From NCBI GenBank assembly GCA_036852015.1, contig JAANDG010000287.1:62001-126000 (forward strand): 64,000 bases of DNA. The letters are read 5' to 3'. Shown piece after piece: positions 619 to 31,378 of the stretch. Below the pieces are notes generated by a model. It saw only the letters and a program-made list of their open reading frames with translations, did no database searches and had not been told where the DNA came from. A program made the translations under genes and the position numbers. The first letter of the stretch is position 1; each line of letters begins with the position of its first letter. This DNA comes from Pelodera strongyloides. Its lineage: Eukaryota; Nematoda; Chromadorea; Rhabditida; Rhabditidae.

Positions 619-3407
619 TACATAATAATGCAGTCGCGCAGCATATGTTTTAAAACCACATGTAAACGCTTTCGTTACCACCCAGTCAGTGTGTGGCTGT
701 TGCAAACGCTTTACAGTGTTCTTCCCCGAGGGGGCGCTCGCTTTTTGATGATCACTTTTGATTCAACAGTTGACACTATCTACCGTAAACTGGTTCGTTT
801 CAAGACCAAATACGTATGATGACGTCACACAGATGTGTTCTTTGCCTCGGGCATTTTCTTATAGAAAATGGCGCTGTTCGACGAATAAATCACGTGAAAA
901 GGAGAGGATTTGATCAATTGATGGATATATACAAGATTCGCCTTGACAAAGATATATGAGATGATTTAGAGGGATATAGTGGTCAGAAGTACGCTTGTAT
1001 GCGCATTGCAGGGAGATAACACCGCCAGAGTTTGGCCATATGAAGTTCCAGTTTCACAGTATTGTTTCGGGAATTCTCCACTACTTGCGCAGGAAAATTT
1101 GAGTGGACTTTTCCCGGTGGCGCTAGCGCTTTAAATAATAATGCGTTCCATAGTCCATCCGTTTTTTTTCTCATTAAGATATGAAAAATGGATACTTACT
1201 AGTGTACCGTACATTTCACATAAACCAAAGAACGCACAACAAGTAAAAATAAGCAGAGATCCCCCCCCCCTTCTTACCATTCTAGTGCAACTTGAGTACT
1301 CACAAGTTGGGTACTATATTTCCTTGCTCTTATAATTCGATTAAATGAATAAATCGGTTCGTGAAAGAAACTGTTACTGTAATTAAAGATTTCGGTAAAC
1401 AAACAAATTACCGTCAAACTTTGGAACCATACATGTTTATGTTTCCTAGTCAATCATAATTTATTGGTAAGAATTAAACAACCTAATTGCAAGCATATTG
1501 CACAGAAAATAGAAGAATAGTCAGTACAAAATGTAGTTTATTTCACGGGCTCGACTCAAAAGTAAGGGCATTTCATTCCGTTTCCTGGCTGTATTTTCAT
1601 GAATGATTGCGCGTTTCCTATTACAAAAATACAAACACAGCAACAATATGTGTTGTTCAGGTACTAGTTTGGTAGGCAAGTTTTGTGTAATTATTTGTTT
1701 AAGTTCTGTTGAGTGCAAAATTGGAACAAACAAGTGTTGTGTATTATATCTTGTGATTCCTAGCAAAAAGGGCATCTGTAATACTCGACGTCACACATTG
1801 TTTCCATTATAAGGTGGTATATTAACGGCACTGTAGTGGGGGACGTTATATATTATCTTTACCCCGCATGCCCATGGTGAATGCTAGCGTGCTGAAATAA
1901 AGGTGGTGCACCAAGTTTACCCAGCGAAAACCTATCACGTATATTGTAAGTGTCCGTTTGTCCGAAACCACATTGAATTGCAAAACACTTATTCTTGAGT
2001 CTCTGGAGATACAGTACACCAAGTGATATTGCATGGACTATCAAGGGGAGTGAAGCACCTTTTTAGGATATCTGATAGTATTTTTGTCGGTTTGCATCAC
2101 ACACCATAACTTTTAATTTAATAAAGTGAACCTTTACTGCTTGTGTTTGCAGAACTTGCAGTGTAATCTGAGGAACTTCCGATATAAGAATAAGGGCATG
2201 TCAAGGGGGATTCTGCGCAGAAAGGCATCTCCTGGCGCAGACTAAGTAAATCTCGAAAGGCGCCCAATACAGTAACCCATAAGCCAGAATAAAATATTTG
2301 AGATGTTGTCATAAACGTGAACAAAACCCGCCGCAACGCACACAAACGGGTACGTTGCGGCGAGCCGGTAATTCAAACCGTCCCGTGGACAGCGATTTGG
2401 CTTAGCTCTGTCCACACGACTAGAATCCCATACTGAAGGAGTTTTTTGGAGGGTTTTGAAATTGTTTTTCTTCTTACATGAAAGTTTTTGTTTATTTTTA
2501 TTTTCACTTTCCTTACCTTCAAAACGCAAGCTTTTTTTTGAGCCCAACATGCAAAACCGGCTTGGCATTCCCTTTCATATCATGTTCTATATATGCTAGA
2601 CTATTTTACGTTACACTTTCGCGCTAATTCGCCGTGAAAGTACCATCCAAGGATCCACGCGCAAGTTTCACATTAGGTGTATGCAAAACACGCCGCAGGT
2701 GTATGTAAATTTCTTACTGTATGTAAAATTCCACTAGTTTCCCACTATAGAAACTGCAATAACATGGATGATACTTTCGCATGCGAAAGTGCGCGAAAAC
2801 TTAACATAAATACTCTATCAGTATCTGCTTCAAGTTGCGGTCATAGTCAGACTGTCAGACTCTAGTTACTGACAGACAATAAATTGTCACATACTGCCAA
2901 GTTTTCACATGATATTGCGAGAACTTGATTAATATGTTTACAACACATAATTGTGCATATTTGTACAAGAATTCATAAACACACTGCCAATATTTTACAC
3001 AATATTTCCACACGATTCTTCATGATGAGGTGTGATTGGTGATCTCTGTGTTATTATTAAACTCTGTTTTTGTTTCCAGAAAAACACACTACATGGGATG
3101 TACTCTTACAATAACACAGTAGTTGCCCACCCATAGCACACATATTTACGCTACCAGAGGGAAACTACCGTATATAACCAACCGTCATGCCGCAGAGGGG
3201 ACAACACAACCCACCGTTGCCTAGAGTTAGAGTAGAAATTACCAAAATACGGTACTATATGACAGTCAATAAAATGGAGCACTTTTTCTCGTTTTTCCTA
3301 TGATCAGGCTCGAACTAAGTGACAGACTCGCAAACAAATAGCACATGTTCTGCATGAAATTGGCATCGTCTCCGAACGTTCTGGGTTGAAAACTGCATTC
3401 TTTTCTC
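619..3407. other. no gene recognised
   Basis: Several open frames of 60-108 codons occur on both strands, but none shows exon structure, recognisable motifs or codon bias. The longest (minus strand, near 2242-2568) runs through Lys-rich, AT-rich sequence and then a GC-rich block near 2330-2420 that looks like a dispersed repeat. Confidence 0.5.
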
Positions 3408-3809
3408 CTAGTTATCAATCATGCTTTGTCTCTAGTTCATTCGCCGTAGCTACACCCGAAAGCACGTGAAGTGCGCAAGCAGTATCAGCTTGCGCACATC
3501 GAGATCAAAATGAATTCGCTCAATCTGTTATTAAACGACTGAACTTTGCGGAAAAACTTCGAGAAAAAACTCATAACGTCACAAGCTCATAGACTATTGT
3601 TTTGCGGTGCAAGCGGAGAGTGCATATTTTCATTCAAGAGAATCGCAAACCCGAAATTTATTATGACCACCAACAGTTCAGCCGTTTCATAACAGATTGA
3701 GCGAATTCATTTTGATCTCGATGTGCGCAAGCTGATACTGCTTGCGCACTTCACGTGCTTGCGGGTTTAACGGCGAATGAACTAGAGACAAAGCATGATT
3801 GACAACTAG
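3408..3809. repeat. foldback element with long inverted arms
   Basis: The left arm begins CTAGTTATCAATCATGC and the right arm ends with its near-complement GCATGATTGACAACTAG. The arms run about 150 bp and include GTGAAGTGCGCAAGCAG and its complement. The centre is about 100 bp of unpaired AT-rich sequence. TA lies at both edges. It has no coding capacity. Confidence 0.8.
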
Positions 3810-4051: not shown

Positions 4052-7000
4052 TCAAACAACACTGGTCGAGCATTCCATGATTCCGAATACTTTTCTGTAG
4101 CAATATCCTGTGGGGAGATGATCGGTAAACTGAATATAATCGGCCACACGACCACTCGGTTTCCCATTGTTAAGATCTGAAATAAAGCAATTAGCTTTTG
4201 AATTAGTTCAGATGATTAGTCTTTGAAACGTTAAATAGTAAGTTTGTTCTTACTTTCATTTCTGGAAAAATACTCCTAATACGAAAAAAACACTAATGAA
4301 CGCCTGTAGGGGTTTTATTTTCGATTATGTCACTTACTTTCGAAAAACAAGTTAGCTGCTAATTCGTGAACAAACAAAAAAAGACAAGTTAACAAAGAAG
4401 TACTGTCTGATTGCGTTACTGTCAGACTCAGACAATTCAAGAAAAATACGTTCCTTTCTATTTATAATAATAGGAGGAGCCGTCAAAAACATTTAGATGA
4501 AGTTTCGTCCACAAGTTGAAAAATATTACCGTCGAACAGGCGATTTGCATCTTTGCAACTCTCAGGACACATCGAGTGGAAATAGCTAAATGCTCGCCAA
4601 TTTGCGATAGAAGAAACTGTGTCGTGGAGGAGAGTCTGAGCTGCCTCCTGGAATTTCCATTTTTTTTTTCGAGTTTCAAAGGGCCCACTTAGGGGACAAT
4701 AATTCAGACGTTACATTAATTCTATTCTTACAACTAGATTAATCCATAAATAAAGAAGTGTGAAATGTGACATAATTACCAGTGAGTCACCGTAAAGTGG
4801 AGCAATTGCGAGTGCGTTTCTGATCTTCCGAATGCAACAGATTCCGACAGCTTTTCCAGTGGTGTCATAGGCGACCTACGACACAAACGTAAAATACACA
4901 ACAAGAAAGATAAAGGTTTTCGATATGTTTAAAGCGAAATACCGGCCGGTTTTTGAAACGCATCGTGATCGTGGACAGCTGTATTCTTACGTATTTATGC
5001 AAAGTTGCTCGAATTTATCTCTATATTTTTTTATTCTAGTTTATGTTCATTTGCATAAGCTGCATAAGAATGCTGGTGTACTCGATGTGTTTCAAAAACC
5101 GGCAGGTATTTCGCTTAAAGTTTCCCAAAGGATAAATATTAATAAATCGTCTCACTCTCGTAGTGGAAATTGGACTTTGCGTCCATCCGAGGACCTGCTG
5201 AGAACGCTCAATTTCTTGAGCAATTGTTTTGTCGTAATATATTAGGTCCGCCGCGTTTGCACCTGAAATTACGTTACTCTTTATAAGACACAAAACAAAT
5301 TGTGCCTTGGCGCTCATTTAGCGCACAACTGGCGCACGTACAGGTTTTTTGGCCATTGATTCTACCTTTTCCTTGACAATTGAGCGCACGACCCATTTAT
5401 TGCATAGTCCCATCAAAAAGGCAGTTCGATAAAAAAAATCATATAAAAGCATGAACTACAATAATCCGGCCACTATTTGAAATGTCTAAGGTACCTGTTA
5501 ATTCACACGTCTTGAAAGAACGACATGGTTTCGGCAAAACAGCCTCTTTACATTCAATTTTATAAATCCAAAAATGGTCGTCCAGAATTTTGTTCATTCC
5601 GTAGCAATTCGAGTACACTGGGCTCATTTTGATCGCTAAAAAGTTCATAGTAATTATTATTGCATTCTCCAATTTGCAATAGTATCACCAGAAATCTTAT
5701 TATCTTATTATATAAAGTTGGGAGCTTTGTTTGTTTGTTTGTTTGTTTGATTGATTGATTGATGTGTGTTTGGATGATGTGCGTTACGCTCAAGAAGTAG
5801 GATTGGTTCAGTAGTTCATGTTCCCATGCACTGAGCCATCTCAAATCCCGAGCGCCCCTCTCACAAAAGTCCAAAAAAGGCTGCATATACAGAAAGTGTG
5901 TGGTATATCGTTCGGGCGCGTCCGCGGCGCTCAAAGTATTTCGATTAAAATACAAAGAACATGCAAATCTAGAGCAACAAAAGAAGCATGTGCTAATTTT
6001 TTGAATCACTTTTGAATCCACGTTTCACGTATGTATGAAATAAAAATGTACTAGAAGGTCGCCTCAGGCGGCGCAGCCGTCTGGTTATTATATAAAAGAG
6101 TAACTGTAGCCTAATTTGCATACCGATGTGCGTTACGAAATGCAAATTTCGTGTTCGGGTATAAAAAGTTTCGCAGCTCAATATCGATGTATGCATATGC
6201 AATTGTTTCCTATTATGTTAATTTTTTATGATACGTTTGAAGCGTTGTATATAAGTATGCCCATGCTGAACCAATCATATTTCCATGTAAGTCGCCTCAG
6301 GCGGCGTGAGCCGACTGGTCTTATTATATAAAAGAGTAATGGGGTTTGCAAGTATGCCCGATTTTCCTTGCAAGTATCGAAAAATTTACCGTATCTTGGC
6401 ACTACACGAACATATCTACAGGCAGTTTTTACGACCGATCGCCACGGGACCAATTGTTCAACAAAAAATGTCTTTGATGGCGGATTTTCTATAGTGCGGA
6501 TGTGTCAAAATTACAGTAAAAGTGTGTAAAAAGCACACGATTTTGCGAATTGATACTTGCAAGGAAAACTCGCGGTTTTTGGCATACCTACGTTCCTGGG
6601 TGCGCAGCGCCCCTTCTGCCAGCCGCGCAAATTGGAGTGCACGCGTAGCCAGCCGCGCAGTTTCCAGTGCGGGCGTAGTCAACCGCGTACCGCGCAGAGG
6701 GGGGCGCACCCAGCCGCGTAGTATGCAAACTACGCGGCTGGGTGCGCGGTGCCTCGGGGAGCTCAACCGCGCAGCGCACCCCCAGCCAACCGCGCAGGGG
6801 GCCCCCGGCCAGCCGCGTAGGCAACGAGAAAATCGGTGTGCAAGCGGCAACGTCACGGCGTGCAGGCGGCGCGGAAAAATTTGCAAGCCGTTGGGTTATG
6901 GCGTGCAGGATTGCACGCCGTACCCACGCGGCCTGCACGCCGTACCCACGCGGCTTGCACGCCTTAACCACGCGGCCTGCACGCCGTACCCCCGCGGCCT

Positions 7001-10000
7001 GCACGCCGTACCCCCGCGGCCTGCACGCCGTACCCACGCGGCCTGCACGCCGTACCCACGCGGCCTGCACGCCGTACCCACGCGGCCTGCACGCTGTGAC
7101 GAGGCCGCTTGCACGCCGAAAAAGAACCGTGCGGGTCAGGTCCTGACCCTGTACTAAACTGGACTAAACAATCACTGGTTGCTAAAAAACAATTCAATGT
7201 AAAGTTTTTATTCTCCCAATAATATAGGTGAAACAACCAGGGTAACAAAACAATAAATAAAGATTCAACAACAAACCAAAAAAAAAACAATAATAACAAG
7301 AAAACTAGTGATAGCACAAGCGAGGACATTGTTATAGCACAAGCGTAACAACTAGAAACAAAATAGGACAAGAAAGCAGGATGCGGACTCGTAACCTAAT
7401 ACTCGTTTCATCGATAAAATAATTTGCTAACCAAGTGACAACTATAGAACTATACGCCTATAAATTACTAAAAAGGTGCTAGAATAAAACGAGAATGGGA
7501 AGAAAATAGTGTCGTTTTAGTAAGATATTGAGCGAAAAGTCTTGGTTGGAGAGAGACAGAGATCTGCGAAGTGATCAGAAAGGAATTGAATTTTAGACAA
7601 CTAATCGCCAACGAACACAAAATTAAACGCTAATTTACGACTGAGGCACGTACGGTGGTCAAAAAAGAATAGATTTTGAGAAATAAGTTAACTACTAGTT
7701 TTGAGAAATAAATCACAAGCTAGAACTACGTGCACAGTTTAGAAACACCTTCGGTACAAATTACCAAACTAGACATCGGAACATATTAAAACAAGCATTG
7801 GAAACTTAGGTGAACACTCCTAATGCTGCTTTATCCAGGATACCCTAATTCTTCTTTTGATCGACCATAATGGGTTTCCAGTGTGAGAATGAACGAAGCG
7901 TACTTCTCGTCGTCAAATGGCTCCACACGGCCTCGGGAATCACGACGCAAATCCGCCCTAAACACACAAAAAATTGTTTGTCAATCACGAATTTAAGCAA
8001 AAGTTAAAATATGTACATTTTGGGAATAGTCAAGTCTCAAGTAGACAATAAAACAGAAAAGTAAATGAAAAAAGCAGACAAATAAATTTTTAAGCTAATA
8101 GTCATAAAACTATAGAAAGCACTATAGAAAGTAAATACATCAAGTGAACTGACGACGTACAATGCTCTATTCAGGTGATATCTCCACTGGGTGATCCGTG
8201 TTAGCTTATCATCGTCTTGAACTGAAGGTTGTTTCTTCTGGATGATGAGGGAAGAGAGAGCTGAACAGTAAAGATGGTAAAATAAGAAGAGGGAAAAAGA
8301 GGACATACATTATCAGACGAATATTAAATGAAAACTAACCTATGAAACGAACGACCACATGATCCGGAAATCTCAATAAACGCTGTGCAGGCAAAGAAGG
8401 TGATCCACCTGAATTGGTGAAATATTGTAATCCCCAGAATCTACTGTAAGAGCGTAGGAGCGCAGTGTTAGATACGAATCTGATTCGTTAAAAACAATTT
8501 TTGCGAATAGAAACTACGTATAAATTAATATCAAGCTGACTACAATTGAAATGTACCTTCACTCCTTTCTTTCTCCGCTGGCCGCTTATCAGATAGTGTC
8601 CACAGCTTTGTGCTCCCTGAGGCCGTATTCACCACTACATTTACCCGGATAAAATCGTTTCCCGGGAAAGTATTTTACCCAAAATGACCATTTTTACCTT
8701 TTCCCGGAATTCACCACTTTTTCCCTTTTCCCAAAAAGCGAGCTGGGAAACGGAAAATTTTACCCGAGCTTGGCACGGGTAAACCAGAAATTACCCAAGT
8801 GTTGTGGTATATTTTTCGTCGAAAACATTTATTTAAACATTATTTCTGTGTTTTATTTGAATGTTTGACAATAATAACTATCTATTTCTTTAAGCAGCAC
8901 AAAAAATTAAGATATTTACGTTAGTTTTTTTCTATTCTCTTCCATTATAACGATAAGAAAATATGTAAGGGATATCTACTATATTAATACATGTTAGAAG
9001 GCAAATAATGCGACTTGAGCATTCGACAGACTTCCGAAGAGCTTGTCGTACTATGAAAATGCACGCGTCCGGCATATATTCTACCCTAAACAAATGGTCT
9101 GAGTGTGCTATGGATGGAGTCAATGGACTATTACATTTTTCTCAAATCATTGCAAAGGAAGATATAGCTTAGGAAGTCTTGTATAAAAAATATAATAGAC
9201 GTCCCCCATCTCCATAAAAAGGTTTTGCGGCGAGTACTACCAACACCATCCGTTGTGGTCTAGTGGTTAGGATTTGTGGCTCTCACCCACAAGGCCGGGG
9301 TTCGATTCCCCGCAACGGAAGCCTGTTTTTGCCCTTTATCTTACCGGGAGAATGTCTTTACAACACTATCTGTACAACCTTATTAGCAAGTTTTCGTTGG
9401 GTATTGTCCTTAAATCTCATCTAACGGAATTGTGTTGATCCGAACTCTAACTATATATTAATAATTATTGAGCGTGCTTATATTAAGCAACGAAAATATA
9501 CAAAATTATTATTACAATGAAAATTAAGCATAAACATATAAAATAATCATATTTTCCTTGAATTTCCCCTTGGGTAAAATTCCCCGTTTCCCAAATGGAG
9601 TGTGAATTCGGGGAGGGATAAAAAGTTTTCCGGAAAGGGCAAAAATATTTCCCGGGAAGGATTTTCGTTAGGAAATTGTCCCTGGGTAATTTGTTTTCCC
9701 GGGGAATTTTTTCCGTAAGAATGGTGAATACGGCCTCTGGTGAGAGAATCTAAAAAATAAGAATGAGAAATAAAAATACAATATAATATCAGAGTCGGGG
9801 AAGTGCCCACAACATACCATTGAGACAAAAGCGTCACAGAACAGTTTCATTTGGCAAGACACAGTTCGGAACCCTTGCCTTTTTCTCGAGTTAAATGCCT
9901 ATAAATAGAACAATGAGGATAGTCGCTATGCTCTGTCCATTGCGAACATGCGAAAATGTCAATGCCTGTCCATGTTCAGACCAAACTTACAAATGTCAAA

Positions 10001-13000
10001 TGCTTACCGTACCCATGCGAATGACGCGTTGGACATGTCCCGCAGCGAAAGTCTCAGATCCGTACTATTTGAATAGATCCGTACTATTTTAAAATAGATC
10101 CACTAATGCAAAGTCGCTGCGGACACATTTACATTAACTCGAACATGGACAGGCATTTGACATTTTGGCAAGTGCGTTTCGCAAACATGGACAGGGCAAA
10201 ATCGAAGGATATTGCAATCATAAAAGGATAATCTAAATAATCTGAAAACTAAGGCAACGTACCGACGTAACCATGTAGAGATGACACGGACGGAATGTGA
10301 GATCAGATGGATGATTTATCCACAACTTAGAGTGTGGAAACATAATCCCTAGAATAATTATTAAGAAGAATCAACCCGAAAAGTTGTAACGTATACTATT
10401 GGGCATACGTATATTTGGCCACACAAGTTCTAGAATTGCCTATTTCGACGTGAATATCTCGTGTGCAACGCATCGCAACGTGATATAACAATAGAAAGTG
10501 TAAAAAAGTGAATAGCAGGAGTTTTCCTATAGCATGGAACAGCGGTAAATTGGAACAGTTAATCGGTAAATTGGAACATGCAAAACAAGAGTTCTGTGTT
10601 GAATATCGCGAACATACGTACCTGAATTGGTAAAACGTCTACCCCGGAGATGCAATCAGAGAGTTTGTTCCACACATACGTGTACCACTGAAGATAGTAA
10701 ATATGTGTAACATAGAAAAATTGAAAGCGACACAAAACAGAATACTACACTCAGGAAAAACAAGCGCAACCCGAAGTGAACTGTATATCCTACCTTCGCA
10801 GTGGTTTCCTGTCCCTGTTCTGCCGAACTGTCCAATTGCTGCATTGAGGCAATAGCACTGTTGCCCCCTAGAGATGTGCAAAAGTAATAAAACATTAACA
10901 TTCAGCTAACAACCTATAAAGTGTGCTGGAAGCATACTAGTATGCTAACCAATGAAAATCAGTGTAAAACAAGAGAAAAAAATATATACTGAAACTAACA
11001 AATGTTAATACAAGCAAAAACGTTAGCGTGTTGTATAAGAGGAAAAATCTACCTTGCTGCGACTTAGGAGAAACTGTAGCATTGACCCGATTCTTACACT
11101 CTTTTCTTCTACTTCGGTTGTCCAGCTTCAACAAAAATGTGTATCGAGCAGATATAACATCAAAGGGTTAACACTATACTTCGCAATTCCATGCCTAATA
11201 GAAAAAAAATCAACTTCAGCAATTTTATCCACTAAACAAATTATAAATAGTCAAAATAGTAGTAAAATGAACTATTAAACTGAAAAAGTAGTAGTGGCTT
11301 ACTATCTGAATTTCTCTTCCTCATGCAAATTGAACTTGATCCTGCATCGTCATCATCGTCATCCTCTTCCTCATCAGTGGTCACTGAAAGGGACTCTTAA
11401 TGGGTACAACTATATAATTGGCTATATAAATATGCAAAGAGAATAATATGCTTGGTTCAGTACTGTATCCCATTATCATATCCATTCACATTAGCTTTAT
11501 TTAGAAAACAAACAAAGTACTCACCAGTTGATACAGATGGACTTGACCAATCATCCACACTTATACTTGATTGATCTAGGCAACTCTGATCACCTTCCAT
11601 TTCGCCTCTAGAATTTGCACGGCATCATTTTTAGTTGGCAATTGAAATAAGAGCATTCAACGTACTATATTCAAGAATGTTCATGACAGACCAGCAAAGA
11701 AAAAGCAGCAAAGAAAACCAGAAAGGTACCTATCGGCCTCATCTCGATCACTTTGCTCCGTTGTTTGTCCTTGTCCAGTACTTCCGTTGCTGTTTGGCCC
11801 AAAAATTGCATACAGTTCGCTTCTCGAAAATACGTCCAGGCTCCTCACGGGTAACATTCGCCTGTACATAACACAACGCTCCGGAAGACAATAGTACGGG
11901 TTTAATACTCGCAAACAAAGGAAATAAAGGAAAATGTTCACCCTAAAACATTCCAATAACATCACTAGGAGCAATTGTATACAACAAAAAAAAACAGATA
12001 TAAGTCAATGGTCAATGCATAGACACGTATATGGTACCACTACTGAACACACCAAAACTAATCATCAAATAACAAACAAACAAATAAATGTTATACCTCA
12101 CCTTTATTTTCGTCAAGGATCCTAATGCGCTTCACAATACAAATAACCGACTCGGCGTTTGGGCGAAACCTGGATAAAATAAGGGCTATAAATAAATTAA
12201 ATAGGAATATGAAGCAATGATCATAAAAGGGTTCATCCCAACGCCCAACAAATGGTGAGTATATATCACGAATAAGACAAATATTAAATGATCAATTTCC
12301 GCAATTTAATCCATTAAGCAAAAAAACAATATTACCGTGAGGCCTCTTCAATTGTTATGCGCAGAGACATATCCCCCTTTTAATTTGTCCCTTTCCTTTC
12401 ATACAATATCTGAGGTTGGAAAACCGTGATAAATAGGCCGTAAATCTTAGAGAATTGCTAATTATTCCTACCTTCAACCTTTCTTCAACAGTCCCCGACT
12501 GTAAAACCATGCAGGGTTTCCAGGGTATGGGTATTCTACTTGCGGGGTTAAATCTGTAAGCACATATAGATTTACTCTTAAAACAATAAATAATCAAATA
12601 ATCAAATAAAAATTAGCACACATGATTCCCGAAACACACAGGAACACAATCAAACATGCAGAACAATCCTTTAATTTATCATACTAAAACATTCTGCCTT
12701 TACTACAATATTTGTGTTTTAATATAAATTACTAGGAATCACTGTAATGGGAAAGTATGTGGGAATCATCGGTGGCTACAATAGTATTAAGATAAGAAGC
12801 TTTCTTGCAAATTCAGAAAACAACAGAACGTAATAGGAATAGGTCTCCAGAGAATTACTAGCTCCCAAAATGAATACACTGGTTGCTGATTTAGCGCTTA
12901 CATAATATATACAAGATAGTTCACAGACAACGTAGTTAGTAATCAAAATACAATAAATGCGCGCAAGACGCCATAAAGTGAATGTAACGAGTAACACGCA

Positions 13001-16000
13001 ATAAAAAAACCAATACATGCCAACGGATGTTATTCTATTAAAGAGCAAAGATATCACAATGCAAGGCGAGGACTGAAAAGGTAGTGAATGCCTCGCACCC
13101 CCTGCCCTGCCATCCATGCTCCTCCCATATTGCCAAAGGCGAATATGGTTATAGGCGAATATGGTACATAACTCCTCCCAAAGGTGCCAAAGGCGAATAT
13201 GGTACATAACTCCTCCCCCATCTCATATTGTGACAACGTACTATATCAACGAGAGAGAGGCCCAAAACAGGAATCAACCACGTAATGCACCTTGCATCGT
13301 TACAATGATCTTTACAAACAATGAAAATACTTTTTTTACAAACCGATAGCCGAACCGAACTGAAAATATAAAAATTTTGAATTTTTTAAAACACTAGCTA
13401 TCTGCACAGACACTGTACGTCTGTGGACTCAATCTGATTACGGTATGTAGGACTCTAATTTGGGAAACACTCGGTTGGCGTGCAAGCCGCGTGGGCACGG
13501 CGTGCAAGTTGCACGCCGTTGGGCACGGCGTGCAAGTTGCACGCCGTGCCCACGCCATTTCGCCTCCGGGCTTTTGGCGTGCAGGCGGCGTGGTAACGGC
13601 GGGCAAGTTGCACGCCATACCCGTCTGGCGTGCATTTTTCACGCCACCACGTTGCCAAATACACATTGCACGCCGTAGTCACGCGGCTTGCACGCCAAGT
13701 TTCGTCAGTGGGGGGGCAGAAAGAAGGGGCGTTCGCGGTTGAAGACCCGAGACTTGCAAACCCCATCACTGTAGCCTAATTTGCATACGGATGTGCGTTA
13801 CGAAATGCAAATTTCGTGTTGGGGTATAAAAAGAGTTTCGCAGCTCAATGTCGAAGTATGCATATGCAATTGTCTCCTATTATGTGAATTTCTTATGATA
13901 CGTTTGAAACTTTGCATATGTACGCCCATGCTAAACCAATCATATTTCCACGTAAGTCGCCTCAGGCGGCGTGAGCCGACTGGTATATAATGAAGTAGTT
14001 AGCTGAATTCCGAATAAAAAAGAATAAGAATGCTAAAATTAATAAAGTTTTTTTCACAGGCAGTACACAATGATTGTACTGCTTGTTATGGTTATTGACG
14101 TTCATTATGTTTCAAAATGCACACTTAAACCCCGGCAACCTGTAATGTGCAGTTTTTCAATACCTTACTACGTTGGTACAATCTAATAAGACTACGAACC
14201 GGCAGCGAGTCCAACGTTGTAACCGTTCATATGTTTGGCCACTTTATCAAAAAGACATTTTCCAATTCCAAGACTTCGATATTCGGGACGAGTATAATAG
14301 AAACCAATCTGAAGGTTAAAGCGAATTAGCGGTCGGTCTCAACAAAAAAATACAAAAAGAGGAGGAGTAAACAACCGTGCGTTGACCACCGTTTTCAAAC
14401 CACCGTTTTACTAGCCGAATTCAAAATATTTTGTCAACATTTCGTCATTTGGATGCTGCGGTATGCGTGATCATTTGAAAAGGCCATCCCTCGATTTTTC
14501 CAGGGCCGTGCTAGTATTAAAATCGGCAAATCGCCTGAAGCGAATTTTCCCATACAAAATCGCAAAATATGGTTGTTTGAGAACATTTTTGTGCAAGATG
14601 CCCTTATTTGTTTGTGTTTTTATGTTTATTTTCGTTTATAACTTTTTTCAAACTATTTTTGGTGAAAAAAACCCCAAACCGGGTGGTATTTCGCTTTAAA
14701 GGATCGCAGTCACTACAAATTCGTATTTTTTATTCGCTTTTCATTAATTGTTCAAGTATGTGAAGAAAACGACGATTCCAGCGCCAAAGTACGGCAAAAC
14801 GAACTCAGGGAGAGAAATCCCTGTTTATGACTTTTACTTATATACCGTAGTTTATAATTGCCCGTATAGAGTTTCATAATAAATACCCTGCAGTGATAAA
14901 CCACGCGCCAGGTGTAACACTGCAGGCTGTTCACTCTCCAAGTACCCCTGGCAATTGCATATATGCACCGGCGTCGGTCATTTATCAAAACTCATTCTCA
15001 TTGATTTCTCTCCCTGAGTTCCATTTTATGTGGATTTTTATGGGCTGCATATTGTTTTATAAATCTGCTTGCATCTAATAAAAATCGAATAAAAAAGTTG
15101 ATTTTGAAGTGACTGCCTTCCTTTAAACTTATAAACAATTATAAGTGACCCAATCCTAGCCTCAAAACAGCACTTGCTGGAACTCGATGCCTTTTCTCTG
15201 TCCGAAAGAGTGCCGATTACTTGAGAATAAACAGGGACCCAAGCGGCCTTATGCGATAAACTTATAGGCTGTTCTCTCTAGATAGGCCACTGCACCACCT
15301 TCATAACATATAATAAACAATCAAACTTTACCCCGAGAGATAAATCGGGACAGTTTGCGTAAAACTTACAAACTTGTCACTCGGTTGGTTCTTGTTCTTA
15401 TTTCTACTGGAAACGATGAATACACATGAGATGGCCTTTTTAGTATCTGTAATAAGGATACATATTTCAACAATTTGTGGCACACGGGCTGTAGTATAGT
15501 AAATTCAATGAAGCAAGCTTATTATATAAAGGAGAAGAGTTTGAAGGCGTGGATGTTCCGCCAAGCAAGTTAGAATATCTGAATGCTATAAAAGGAGAGT
15601 CGGAGCTCAGTCTTGAGCAAGCGAAATCGAAACTTATTGCATGATTTTTTTTTCAATATATGTTGCAAACGTTTCACATGAATGTGCACAAGTGTTAATG
15701 CATTTTGAACCTTGAATTACTGGAAAGTCGCCTCAGGCGGGCGCTAGCCGTCTGGTAATCAATAATGAACAAGTAGGTTAGTCAACGATCTGCATATCAA
15801 ATCGGTACCCTTCTCTACCGCTCCGTATAACACAAAATCGTCGAGGGTTTCCATCCAAAGTTTGAAATCATCTTTGTGAACGTGCCACGCATCAGACTCC
15901 CAATTCTAAAAAATAAAAGATGTTTTACAAAAAATCAATCAATAATAAAATTTTACTACTTCTCCGGCCTAGATTCCTTGAAGCAATTTAGTCTACGTCG

Positions 16001-17544: not shown

Positions 17545-20370
17545 TCAAACCAGACTAGTTGAACACTCAAGGATACCGTAGACTTTTTCAAACGCATAAC
17601 CGGCGGGAATTTCATCAGTGAATTGAAGAAATTCGGTCGGTTTTCCGGATGGGTTTCCATTGTTCATAGCTGAAGAGAAATGGAGTTGAAATAAAAAAAA
17701 AACACACAAGGCCAGCTCAGCCTCACTACCACAATATTTTTCTAGCATAAATCATTTCCGGTGAAAACAAAATCTGCATATTATAAGAAATAGAATCAAT
17801 AGTAAACTCTAGACTTCAACTACTTACCCTCAAACATATGTGTTGCCATTGTACAGGTGCTTGGTGACATGGAATTCAAATGGTCAAAAGCCCGCCACTC
17901 CTTGATATCGGAAAGAGTATCATGGAGTAGTGTCTGAGCCGCTTCCTACAAAAAAAGATCTGTATTTAAAATTATGCACCGAGCGGGAATCGAACCCGTG
18001 ATGAGGTTCACAGTATTCAGTAACGTTAGCCACTTGACTAGAACAACATGAAGTATTACTCACCAGTGAATCAGCGTAAAACGGAGACATTGCGAGCGCG
18101 TCTTTGATCACACGAATACAACAGAATCCAGCCACTTTTCCATTACTGTCGTAGGCAATCTGTAATTATGGGAAATATATTCTATCTGACACTCAGTAAC
18201 CTCCAGGGCTTCTTTCAGGCTAGTATATTGAAGTTTCTCTAAACATCTTTGCATCAGAAAGTGACAAAGCCTCACTCTAGCAGTGCAAATTGGACTCTGC
18301 ATCCAACGGAGCACTTGCTCCTCGCGTTCGATATTTTGTACCACAGTTCTATCGAATTTCGTCACATCACCACGATTTGCATCTAAATAATATGCCATCC
18401 ACTCAAGCTGCGAAGGTTAAAGCGAAATATTGGCCGCTTTTTGAAACACATCGCGGACGAGTTCTTACGTATTTATGCTAATTTACGCGAATTTAGCTCG
18501 ATTTTTTGTTCTAATTCATGCTCATTTGCCTGAGCTCGTTTCAGAAACCGGCCAGTATCGAAGCTCGATCCTTTATCAATGAAAACTATAAAGAGGTATG
18601 GTACGCGGTTTGAAACGTATTATGTCACGCATATTATACGCAAATGTCTATGATGTGCAGCACATACAATACATAAAAATGCAATTGACGTTTCAGGCAT
18701 GGCCATTACAGGCAGCCAAACAAAATTATCGAAGTATAATGATAAAATATTTGTTTCACTAAAATACCCGTGAGGGGTTCGGTCTTGTAGGAGGCAGAGG
18801 GCTGCGGAAGAATGGCACTTTTGCATGTAATATTGTGCACTACAATACGAACATCCAAGAATTTATTTATTCCGTAGCATTTAGCGTACACGGGGCTCAT
18901 TTTGACGGCTGAAACATTTTTTTAGCATTTACTTGTCTCCAAAGATCTTGAAACGTTTAAACGAAAAGTTTTAAAACGTTTGAAAATCTATGCTGAATAT
19001 GAATAGAAAACTAGAACTGTAAGATACAATTTCCTGTAAAGTAGGCATGACATTGCCACTACTGTGATATAATAAAGAATATTATAAAATGTTAAAAATT
19101 ATAAAAATAAAAATAAAATAATAAAATAAATAAAATATAAATAAAATAGCTCACCGCCAGCCAATCCCACATTATGTCCCTCCATATGTGGAACGAGTTT
19201 GTCGAAGAGAACCTTTCCGATACCAAGACCTCTGTACTGGGGCCGAGTGTAGTAGAAACCGATCTACAATTTCTTATTCAAAAGCCTTCTTTCAGGGACA
19301 CTTATTGAAAGGACTAGAAACATCTGCACTGAAAAAATCCTCGGTTGCACTGCACGGCGCACCAAAGATGCGAGAAGTGTGCGCGGATAAAAGATGGCGC
19401 ACATGACTGCGGCAGATGCGCCAACGGGAATTGCAGTACTCGCGCACAACCCACGACATCTAGCCGCGAAGGGACGTAGACACATAGAAAGAAACTTTCA
19501 ATTTATTTGAAAACCACCATAGCTAACAATAAGTGTAAGTAACACACAATTCACAAACCTTATTCTTTTACCTACGACCTTGCCTTCTAATTATCTTATT
19601 ATATAAAGGAGAAGAGTTTACTTTTTGGTTTGTGTGAACGGAACGAAAAGCAAAACCTACAAATTTATCATTGGGTCGTTTTGTCGCAGATCGGATTGAT
19701 GCTATGAAAACACAGGAGACCGCCTTCCGGGTATCTTCAAGAAAATGTACAAATTATAGTCTTTAACTTTTCGGTAACATTTTTTAAACCACAATTTGTG
19801 AAACATGATAAAATAATATTTCTAATGCTGTGGAACATGTGTAATGAGAAGCAAAGCTGATCTTGCTTCCACATTTCATTTTGTAGTTTGTTGTTTATTG
19901 TTTATTGATTTAACAACTTTATATAAACTTATCCAATATTACATTGAATATGCATAAATTACCCTTTTCGACTGCTCCGTACATTACTAGATCGTCAAGA
20001 GTTTCGCTCCAAACTTTGTAGTCATTTTTGTCACAGTGCCATCCATCAGAGAGCCAGTTCTAAATTATTTAACAATTTATTTTTATTTAAGTTATTATTT
20101 ACTTTTAATTATTATTATTATTTCCTTTTAATATGAACATTTTGATATGACGTCATGTCTGGGTTTGAGAAATTTAAAAGTTTCATATATTATAAAATAA
20201 TTTTAATGCTTGAATTCTGTTTTCTCGGATGTACTCCGTTTCTTCATTTGTCAATTGTCTTTATAAAATGAAATAAACATTTGTACCGCATCTACTAATT
20301 CGCCAAAGAAAGGCCCGTCTGGATCGGGATTCACAATGAAATCGATATTTTCAAGTTTTGACGGTGCCAT
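17545..20370 (-). CDS. GNAT-family N-acetyltransferase (paralogue B)
   Basis: Predicted acetyl-CoA-dependent acetyltransferase of 316 aa, tandem paralogue of the gene at 4052-16227; the substrate is unknown. Exons in phase: 20287-20370, 19963-20059, 19661-19734, 19155-19263, 18768-18908, 18276-18382, 18064-18159, 17828-17945, 17545-17669. It starts MAPSKLENIDF, followed by the shared NPDPDGPFF. Exon 4 has IGFYYTRPQYRGLGIGK with the R-x-x-G-x-G acetyl-CoA loop. Exon 7 ends ALAMSPFYADSL and exon 8 begins EAAQTLLHD, the likely second GNAT-like domain. Both paralogues end ECSTS-x-V. Intron 4 is only 246 bp, which gives the ancestral size for the giant intron of paralogue A. A reversed Helitron-like element lies 148 bp upstream of the start and may include or displace the promoter. 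Confidence 0.9.
17971..18050 (-). other. tRNA-like sequence (degenerate, intronic)
   Basis: On the minus strand an A-box-like TAGTCAAGTGGCTAA is followed by a perfect B box GGTTCGATTCC in CGGGTTCGATTCCCG. The acceptor arms do not pair and there is no clean anticodon arm, so it is a tRNA pseudogene or tRNA-derived repeat. It lies in sense in intron 7 of GNAT B. Confidence 0.6.
18415..18570. mobile_element. fragment of the AGCGAAATACC MITE family
   Basis: It begins TTAAAGCGAAATATTGGCCG and continues with GAAACACATCG. The right arm (AAACCGGCCAGTATCG) has lost its terminal TTAA. It lies in intron 5 of GNAT B. Confidence 0.6.
19594..19625 (+). mobile_element. Helitron 5'-end fragment
   Basis: A|TCTTATTATATAAAGGAGA matches the start of the Helitron-like copies here, but no CTRR tail follows. 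It lies in intron 3 of GNAT B, close to exon 3. Confidence 0.45.
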
Positions 20371-30538: not shown

Positions 30539-30746
30539 TTTTTGAAGAATACTGTAGATCTAGCAGAATATAATCAGTATTTTCTCGTGTGCGGTTTTTT
30601 GCTGAGAGCCTGCCCTGAAAGCTTATAATGATACAAATAAATAATGATTTTAAATAAAATATATAACTAACACAAAACAAATACATTGAGCAAATAGACG
30701 GATGACATTCAGAAGGAATAGTGTTCCAGCCTACGTAGCCAGACTT

Positions 30747-31378
30747 TATACGAAAAGATGTAGTTATGCAACTACAAACTACAATTTGTAGCAAAAGATA
30801 CAATCGTATAATGTACAACACATTAAGTTAATAAAAGGCAAGTAATCCGCATGATATACTACATTAAATCGAGGAAATACTTAGAACATATAATTAACAG
30901 TGTAGTTATGAGAATACACATAAAAGCAGTTTAAACATGTAGTTTAGAAAAATACAGATGATGTTTGTTGCAAAGTAGACATACTTTTGCAGACAAGAGC
31001 AAGTCACCATTTACTTAAATAGAAAAAATGTTTCGTCAAGAAAACTATTTAGGGTATAACTATATACGAAAAGATGTAGTTATGCAACTACAAACTACAA
31101 TTTGTAGCAAAAGATACAATCGTATAATGTACAACACATTAAGTTAATAAAAGGCAAGTAATCCGCATGATATACTACATTAAATCGAGGAAATACTTAG
31201 AACATATAATTAACAGTGTAGTTATGAGAATACACATAAAAGCAGTTTAAACATGTAGTTTAGAAAAATACATATGATGTTTGTTGCAAAGTAGACATAC
31301 TTTTGCAGACAAGAGCAAGTCACCATTTACTTAAATAGAAAAAATGTTTCGTCAAGAAAACTATTTAGGGTATAACTA
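30747..31378. repeat. tandem duplication, 2 x 316 bp
   Basis: 30747-31062 and 31063-31378 are nearly identical; the only difference I noticed is CAGATGATG versus CATATGATG. The near-identity suggests a recent event or an assembly artefact. It lies just upstream of the receptor gene's first exon. Confidence 0.9.

Follow-up and report, generated by a model that had tools for sequence, protein, structure and literature searches.

The DNA analysed here, 64,000 nucleotides of Pelodera strongyloides (assembly GCA_036852015.1, contig JAANDG010000287.1, positions 62,001 to 126,000; hereafter the window), carries two GNAT-like genes, A and its paralogue B, in tandem on the minus strand, with Pfam matches to Acetyltransf_1 and Acetyltransf_18. 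The joined protein of gene A matches Acetyltransf_1, and its Acetyltransf_18 match lies just under the cut-off. Very probably, three Helitron-type elements (H1, H2 and H3) lie side by side in the predicted intron 4 of gene A, and the third of them encloses a miniature inverted-repeat transposable element (MITE-A), which encloses MITE-B, which encloses a gene-bearing element (the core), which encloses the tRNA-bearing MITE-D, all brought together by sequential ordinary transposition (Table 1). The nest is real and five deep, counting from Helitron 3 through A, B and the core to D. A first-pass annotation of this DNA had proposed nested transposition with a readable order of events; the nest and the order stand, while the count of four levels and the identity given to the middle element do not.

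Table 1. Features in and around the predicted intron 4 of gene A (positions in the window; TIR, terminal inverted repeat)
Feature	Position	Strand	Remarks
Gene A exon following intron 4 (predicted)	5495..5635	-	from reading frame and paralogue B
Gene A predicted intron 4	5636..14199	-	8,564 bp; donor GTTCGT, acceptor TTTTTAG
H1, Helitron-type	5703..6084	+	TC start after A; hairpin and CTGG end, then T; 7 related loci aligned
H2, Helitron-type without leading TC	6085..6318	+	from alignment; doubles as uninterrupted counterpart of H3
H3, left piece	6319..6339	+	21 bp ending TAA; identical to H2 start past TC
MITE-A, left 248 bp of 260	6340..6587	+	at least 39 other places, 98-99% identical; 25 copies with both ends and flanks
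MITE-B, left 234 bp	6588..6821	+	at least 33 other places at 99-100%
Core, gene-bearing (predicted multi-exon gene)	6822..13710	-	6.9 kb; CAACGAG...CGTCAGTG; copies on C14, C45, C339, C527
MITE-D	8620..9736	+	1,117 bp; TIR AGGCCGTATTCACCA; CTG duplication at 8617-8619 and 9737-9739
tRNA-Glu(CTC) within MITE-D	9249..9320	+	ARAGORN; Rfam RF00005, 64.4 bits (cut-off 29)
MITE-C, older part of core	9928..10204		at least 35 other scored places, about 82-86%; present in C45 core
Core cassette	10402..11206	-	other sequence in its place in C45, C527 and C14
MITE-B, right 41 bp	13711..13751	+	first two bases are the GG duplication; same continuation in five fetched copies
MITE-A, last 14 bp	13752..13765	+	completes MITE-A; first two bases are the AC duplication
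H3, right piece	13766..13983	+	starts TCA, ends CTGG; blocks 89-97% identical to H2
Gene A exon preceding intron 4 (predicted)	14200..14308	-	109 bp; size and phase as in paralogue B; Pfam

The case for the nest lies in its four inner junctions. Across the inserts the split elements complete themselves exactly and in mirror order: H3, MITE-A (248 + 14 bp of 260) and MITE-B (234 + 41 bp). At all four inner levels the interrupted element is made whole across its insert and has an uninterrupted relative in the same assembly, namely H2 for H3, other copies for MITE-A and MITE-B, and the core copies on C45 and C527 for the site of MITE-D. Duplications of 2-3 bp are present at all four junctions, one of them with a substitution. 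Around MITE-A the window has TAA and TCA, where H2 reads gagTAActg. MITE-B has AC on both sides, against GGCATACTTGC in the MITE-A copies, and its own left half runs directly into the sequence of 13711-13751 in the copies on C200, C5, C318, C118 and C10. At the core the window has two plus six G; of the five MITE-B copies read on the right side, four have six G and the fifth, C200, has seven, which indicates a GG duplication. Around MITE-D it reads CTCCCTG and CTGGTG, against CTCCCTGGTG in C45 and C527. Two of these junctions had been placed correctly in the first pass: Helitron 3 is indeed cut after its base 21 (pieces 6319-6339 and 13766-13983), and a tRNA-bearing TIR element, here MITE-D, does lie in an exon. 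MITE-D has the CTG duplication, and the exon is a predicted one of the core that is uncut in C45 and C527.

On this evidence MITE-A would have entered Helitron 3 first, duplicating TAA (now TAA/TCA). MITE-B would have followed into MITE-A, 12-14 bp from its right end, with duplication of AC; the core would then have entered the G run of MITE-B, duplicating GG, and last MITE-D the predicted core exon, duplicating CTG. Each event appears to have been cut-and-paste or rolling-circle transposition with enzymes supplied from elsewhere in the genome, where two of the superfamilies are represented by transposase or Rep-type genes. Divergence fits an order from outer to inner. H1 and H2 are several percent diverged from most aligned copies and this outer layer is the oldest, while A, B and D are each less than 1% from their families: MITE-A in the window differs from a 20-copy consensus at 2 of 248 positions, the left half of MITE-B at none of 234 from eight to nine listed copies, and MITE-D at 5 of 1,117 sites. 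Over two blocks shared with its C45 copy, the core differs at 5 of 1,987 sites and has 59 gap columns besides. The nest yields the relative order of five insertions and is unusually well controlled, each of the four inner junctions having an uninterrupted counterpart from within the genome as its control.

Several observations weigh against this account. The duplication at H3 is imperfect (TAA/TCA). The core copy on C45 is flanked by TG and TT, with no fit to a duplication, and at other MITE-B sites the 2-bp flanks are identical on C5, C118 and C10, a 3-bp duplication fits on C200 and none fits on C318 or C427. Helitron_like_N is found at six places on three contigs, four of them with internal stops, and is not linked to the ends of H1-H3. 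The four inner insertions are all recent, too close in age to be ranked by divergence. Finally, no empty intron site was found, and the query 4700-5702 revealed no second copy of the GNAT locus among the candidates scored (40 of 4,114).

As to the host gene, the first-pass limits of intron 4 and the length of its counterpart in B (246 bp, at 18909-19154) were borne out, the preceding exon being 109 bp in both genes, with GNAT exon ends placed by eye. Removal of the Helitrons leaves 67 + 216 = 283 bp. The first pass had likened this remainder to the 246-bp intron of B; arithmetic and size hold, but there is no convincing alignment between the two (local score 32; 200 shuffles, mean 22.8, maximum 31), which leaves the similar size as the one argument for an original intron. 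The Helitrons would have entered an intron of about 283 bp, which is likely to have grown about 30-fold without loss of the open frame in the flanking exons. From the paralogue and the reading frame only, the whole nest is predicted to be still spliced out as one intron. It is possible instead, but we think it doubtful, that the insertions broke gene A, so that its transcripts end in the nest, with 5.5-5.6 and 14.2 kb being parts of separate transcripts or of a dying gene. The frame-keeping donor, GTTCGT, is weak where B has GTGAGC, and the five remaining measured introns of gene A are 135-1,061 bp long, against 8,564 bp for intron 4; however, the exons flanking the nest read through in the expected frame and are similar to their counterparts in B. 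In B itself the third exon, farther downstream, retains a stop with the end used here, and another donor is seemingly needed. None of the 194 candidates from a protein search with the GNAT B protein reached E<=0.001. Gene A also has, in an intron farther downstream (about 4929-5120), a palindromic MITE-like repeat with at least 39 other scored places at 87-91%.

The three outer elements have the marks of Helitrons. H1 and H3 begin with TC, which H2 lacks; all three end in CTGG, and a hairpin (GTCGCC-TCA-GGCGGC, read by eye) stands just before the end. H2 and H3 are about 236 bp each when whole, and the starts of H1, H2 and H3 read (TC)TTATTATATAAA. Insertion between A and T without duplication is seen at the eight best-scoring H1 loci, the window included, with A before H1 in all eight and T after it in seven. 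The first-pass claim of three head-to-tail Helitrons holds for the elements and their positions, but only H2 and H3 join exactly (CTGG/TC, with no host A between), while the H1-H2 junction lacks the TC of H2. This H2-H3 join is like that of head-to-tail Helitrons in maize, whose G/T junction CTGG/TC also lacks a host A, as far as the excerpted account goes (PMC2267711). The window differs from that account, in the part drawn on here, in the H1-H2 junction without TC, in having three elements and not two, and in that no captured gene fragments were recognised in it (PMC2267711). Such a join has been argued for tandem Helitrons in passages of two papers (PMC2267711; PMC5876387), and the possibility that H1-H2-H3, or H2-H3, arrived together as a tandem product of rolling-circle replication deserves some weight without being the likelier one. 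H1 belongs to a different subfamily, and H2 follows H1 at six of the seven other best-scoring loci with junctions that vary from locus to locus (within 0-11 bases in seven of the eight, window included), a pattern better explained by repeated insertion next to a 3' end already in place than by a single compound unit; these loci were picked by score, hence biased towards H1+H2 pairs. The excerpted maize study itself favours consecutive insertion for its own pair (PMC2267711).

That the nest is an artefact of assembly, with repeats misjoined near 6.3-6.8 and 13.7-13.8 kb, is highly improbable. Every element involved is a repeat, and the core is mosaic relative to its other copies, but a misjoin must complete three split repeats exactly, in mirror order and with matching duplications, so that an assembly join is very unlikely; this argument leaves aside a misjoin within the core alone. 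More improbable still is the first-pass proposal of a single 7.4-kb TIR element (6340-13765) in Helitron 3, of which the small MITEs would then be deletion derivatives, since, although the outermost 14 bp do form inverted repeats, the noted TIR TGGGGTTTGCAAGT belongs to the 260-bp MITE-A, which holds both its own TIRs and of which the left arm alone is nearly the whole, the core copies on C14, C45 and C339 lack A and B and start at 6822 next to flanks of other sequence, MITE-B elsewhere goes from 6821 straight to the sequence of 13711, and the halves of A and B complete each other across the core, which rejects them as core deletion products. The region is three elements, MITE-A, MITE-B and the core.

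Full-length MITE-A is 260 bp, TGGGGTTTGCAAGT...ACTTGCAAACCCCA, with the right part at 6550-6587. The query 6340-6600 (40 of 838 candidates scored) matches the other places over its first ~248 bp, and one further place at 94%. Both ends were located in 25 of 30 loci, and among these 25 copies the 3-bp flanks are identical in 19 (14 of those TAA or TTA) and differ by one base in six. This is the 3-bp TWA duplication of PIF/Harbinger elements; the MITE-A TIR (<=2 mismatches) is, however, absent from the three transposase loci fetched out of nine places, and MITE-A is therefore not assigned to that superfamily. MITE-B is about 273 bp when whole, and its other places were found over ~6588-6821 of the query 6580-8619 (40 of 583 candidates scored).

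The right end of the core is common to the copies on C14, C45, C339 and C527, and in six further relatives too the terminus is CGTCAGTG. For the minus strand, a home-made exon finder using a codon table built a model of 13 exons that scores 55 (7 on the plus strand); the full 13-exon model is uncertain. Eight open frames of the core have no Pfam match at E<=1, and hence no match to a DDE transposase. Neither did the joined pieces of the predicted protein find any relative at E<=10 among 721 candidates from a protein database, and against PDB sequences the best E value of the pieces, 0.057, is not meaningful. CACTA/Mirage-type elements are marked by a 2-bp duplication and CACT-type ends. The core is flanked by GG/GG in the window, AT/AT on C14 and CA/CA on C339, but by TG/TT on C45; its right end reads CACTG on the other strand and its left end CAACG. 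In view of the missing transposase match the core is not assigned to this type. Core copies have flanking blocks more than 99% alike and middle cassettes that differ, with other predicted exons (10402-11206 against L069, L071 and L073). For most of this cassette, 10493-11206, nothing else in the assembly matched (40 of 51 candidates scored); within 10402-10492 there are two short matches to dispersed repeats, which in several contigs are found again at a spacing of about 2.3 kb. MITE-C lies in the C45 core as well, so that its arrival was likely before the spread of the core; it resembles the ends of a DDE_Tnp_4-bearing PIF/Harbinger element in L119 (C14:387500-392000; inverted repeats, locus 660-3678). 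At C527:91839-104319, at the end of the contig, two core copies face each other in opposite orientation.

Known types of transposition account for the nest, itself a structure of a known kind; more unusual, and the closest to a novelty, is the family of tRNA-bearing MITEs. MITE-D occurs at 41 places or more (46 pieces from 40 scored of 133 candidates, a count of 41 that omits five short or interrupted pieces). Among 26 rows of flanks, in which two copies are counted twice, the 3 bp are identical in 15 and CTG is paired with CAG in six more; for four of the 30 loci the second end was not placed. As in PIF/Harbinger MITEs, the TIRs are short, the duplications are of the CWG type, and the TIR is held in common with a transposase-encoding element: it is 14/15 identical to that of the element at C646:68451-72638 (L120, L121), which has CAG/CAG flanks and DDE_Tnp_4 pieces inside and is likely a PIF/Harbinger relative. 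Unlike such MITEs, MITE-D holds a complete tRNA gene sequence, and its likeness to the C646 element is limited to about the terminal 25 bp. Copies in direct tandem are seen on C557 (L054, L064), with three tRNA calls in a row, and on C895 (L053, L066), with two.

ARAGORN calls tRNA-Glu(CTC) in 27 of 30 MITE-D loci, the exceptions being L057 (incomplete anticodon), L061 (none) and L067 (Ala). The features of a functional tRNA gene, a cloverleaf, internal promoter boxes and a T-run terminator, are present at the sequence level; among 24 aligned copies the box A string is found in 22, and the box B string and a run of at least four T after the gene in all 24. A search with the 71-nt tRNA pattern (<=3 mismatches, no indels) gave 62 places including the window, 45 of them exact. 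At least 37 of the 62 lie in MITE-D, 34 of these in the 41 listed places, one in a shortened copy (C1) and two in diverged relatives (L101 and L109; 82-83%). Of 28 tRNA places outside the MITE-D list, 16 were fetched (L097 with short flanks only): in 14 the match to MITE-D covers the tRNA with no more than 22 further alignment columns, and two are L101 and L109. The tRNA sequences are often identical between MITE-D copies and the other sampled tRNA loci, but the sequence right after the gene differs, the MITE-D tail being gcctgttttt.

In the 14 older MITE-D copies (87-93% identity to that in the window) the tRNA has a mean of 1.14 mismatches, against 6.1 expected from the whole element, a mean that omits the 7 of 41 places without a match at <=3 mismatches: L067 (five substitutions), L055, L057 and L061 (missing bases), and L043, L050 and L051 (ARAGORN calls one base longer). 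The 24 aligned copies have seven substitutions in the tRNA against about 24 expected. However, 121 of 1,047 stretches of the same width are equally low (199 when counted by distinct events), and tRNA conservation is not accepted as proof of selection. The exact tRNA in L101 and L109 proves little, these two having been found via their tRNA. Any of three things could account for the intactness: selection, the youth of the copies, or gene conversion from other loci. One tentative proposal, which goes further than the sequences at hand, is that MITE-D acts as a jumping tRNA gene: a MITE of the PIF/Harbinger type would have captured a host tRNA-Glu(CTC) gene with its terminator and spread it, so that most such genes of this worm would now be mobile, transcribed and selected to stay intact. 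If so, one mobile tRNA gene has come to sit in an exon of a second transposon, which in turn occupies a host intron. The family also suggests a route by which a transposon could drive the number of tRNA genes.

Two further sets of observations in other genomes come close. In maize and wheat, REANNOTATE found elements within elements and took their temporal order from which splits which, according to the excerpts used (PMC2672092). The present nest is like those clusters, as excerpted, in that elements are inserted into elements in a readable order, but it consists mostly of short MITEs with one gene-bearing element, enclosed by a Helitron that itself lies in a predicted host intron, and for four of its levels the same assembly has uninterrupted relatives. 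In Arabidopsis a tRNA-Cys cluster overlaps annotated Helitrons, and for Helitrons, according to the part consulted, there would be no earlier example of a captured non-coding RNA (PMC10701932). Like MITE-D, it is a case of a tRNA gene suspected of multiplication by a DNA transposon. The excerpt describes a local tandem cluster with no reliable call by Helitron predictors over the tRNA genes (PMC10701932), whereas the MITEs here are dispersed, full-length and flanked by short duplications. In open-licence PMC text we recognised no description of a tRNA gene within a MITE or of the present nest.

The assembly is 160 Mb long. Searched for SL1 RNA, it yields 32 matches that stay under the family cut-off of 75, the best of them at 47.7 bits, and 14 control genomes yield none. 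On C857 and C26 (L094, L095) SL1-like RNA genes, likewise below the Rfam cut-off, stand in arrays, and both sampled places carry GGTTTAATTACCCAAGTTTGAG, which we take to be the nematode SL1 leader; this sequence evidence makes a nematode host very likely. Elsewhere in the window, at 30743-31378, a 316-bp unit is present in two tandem copies that match at 99%.

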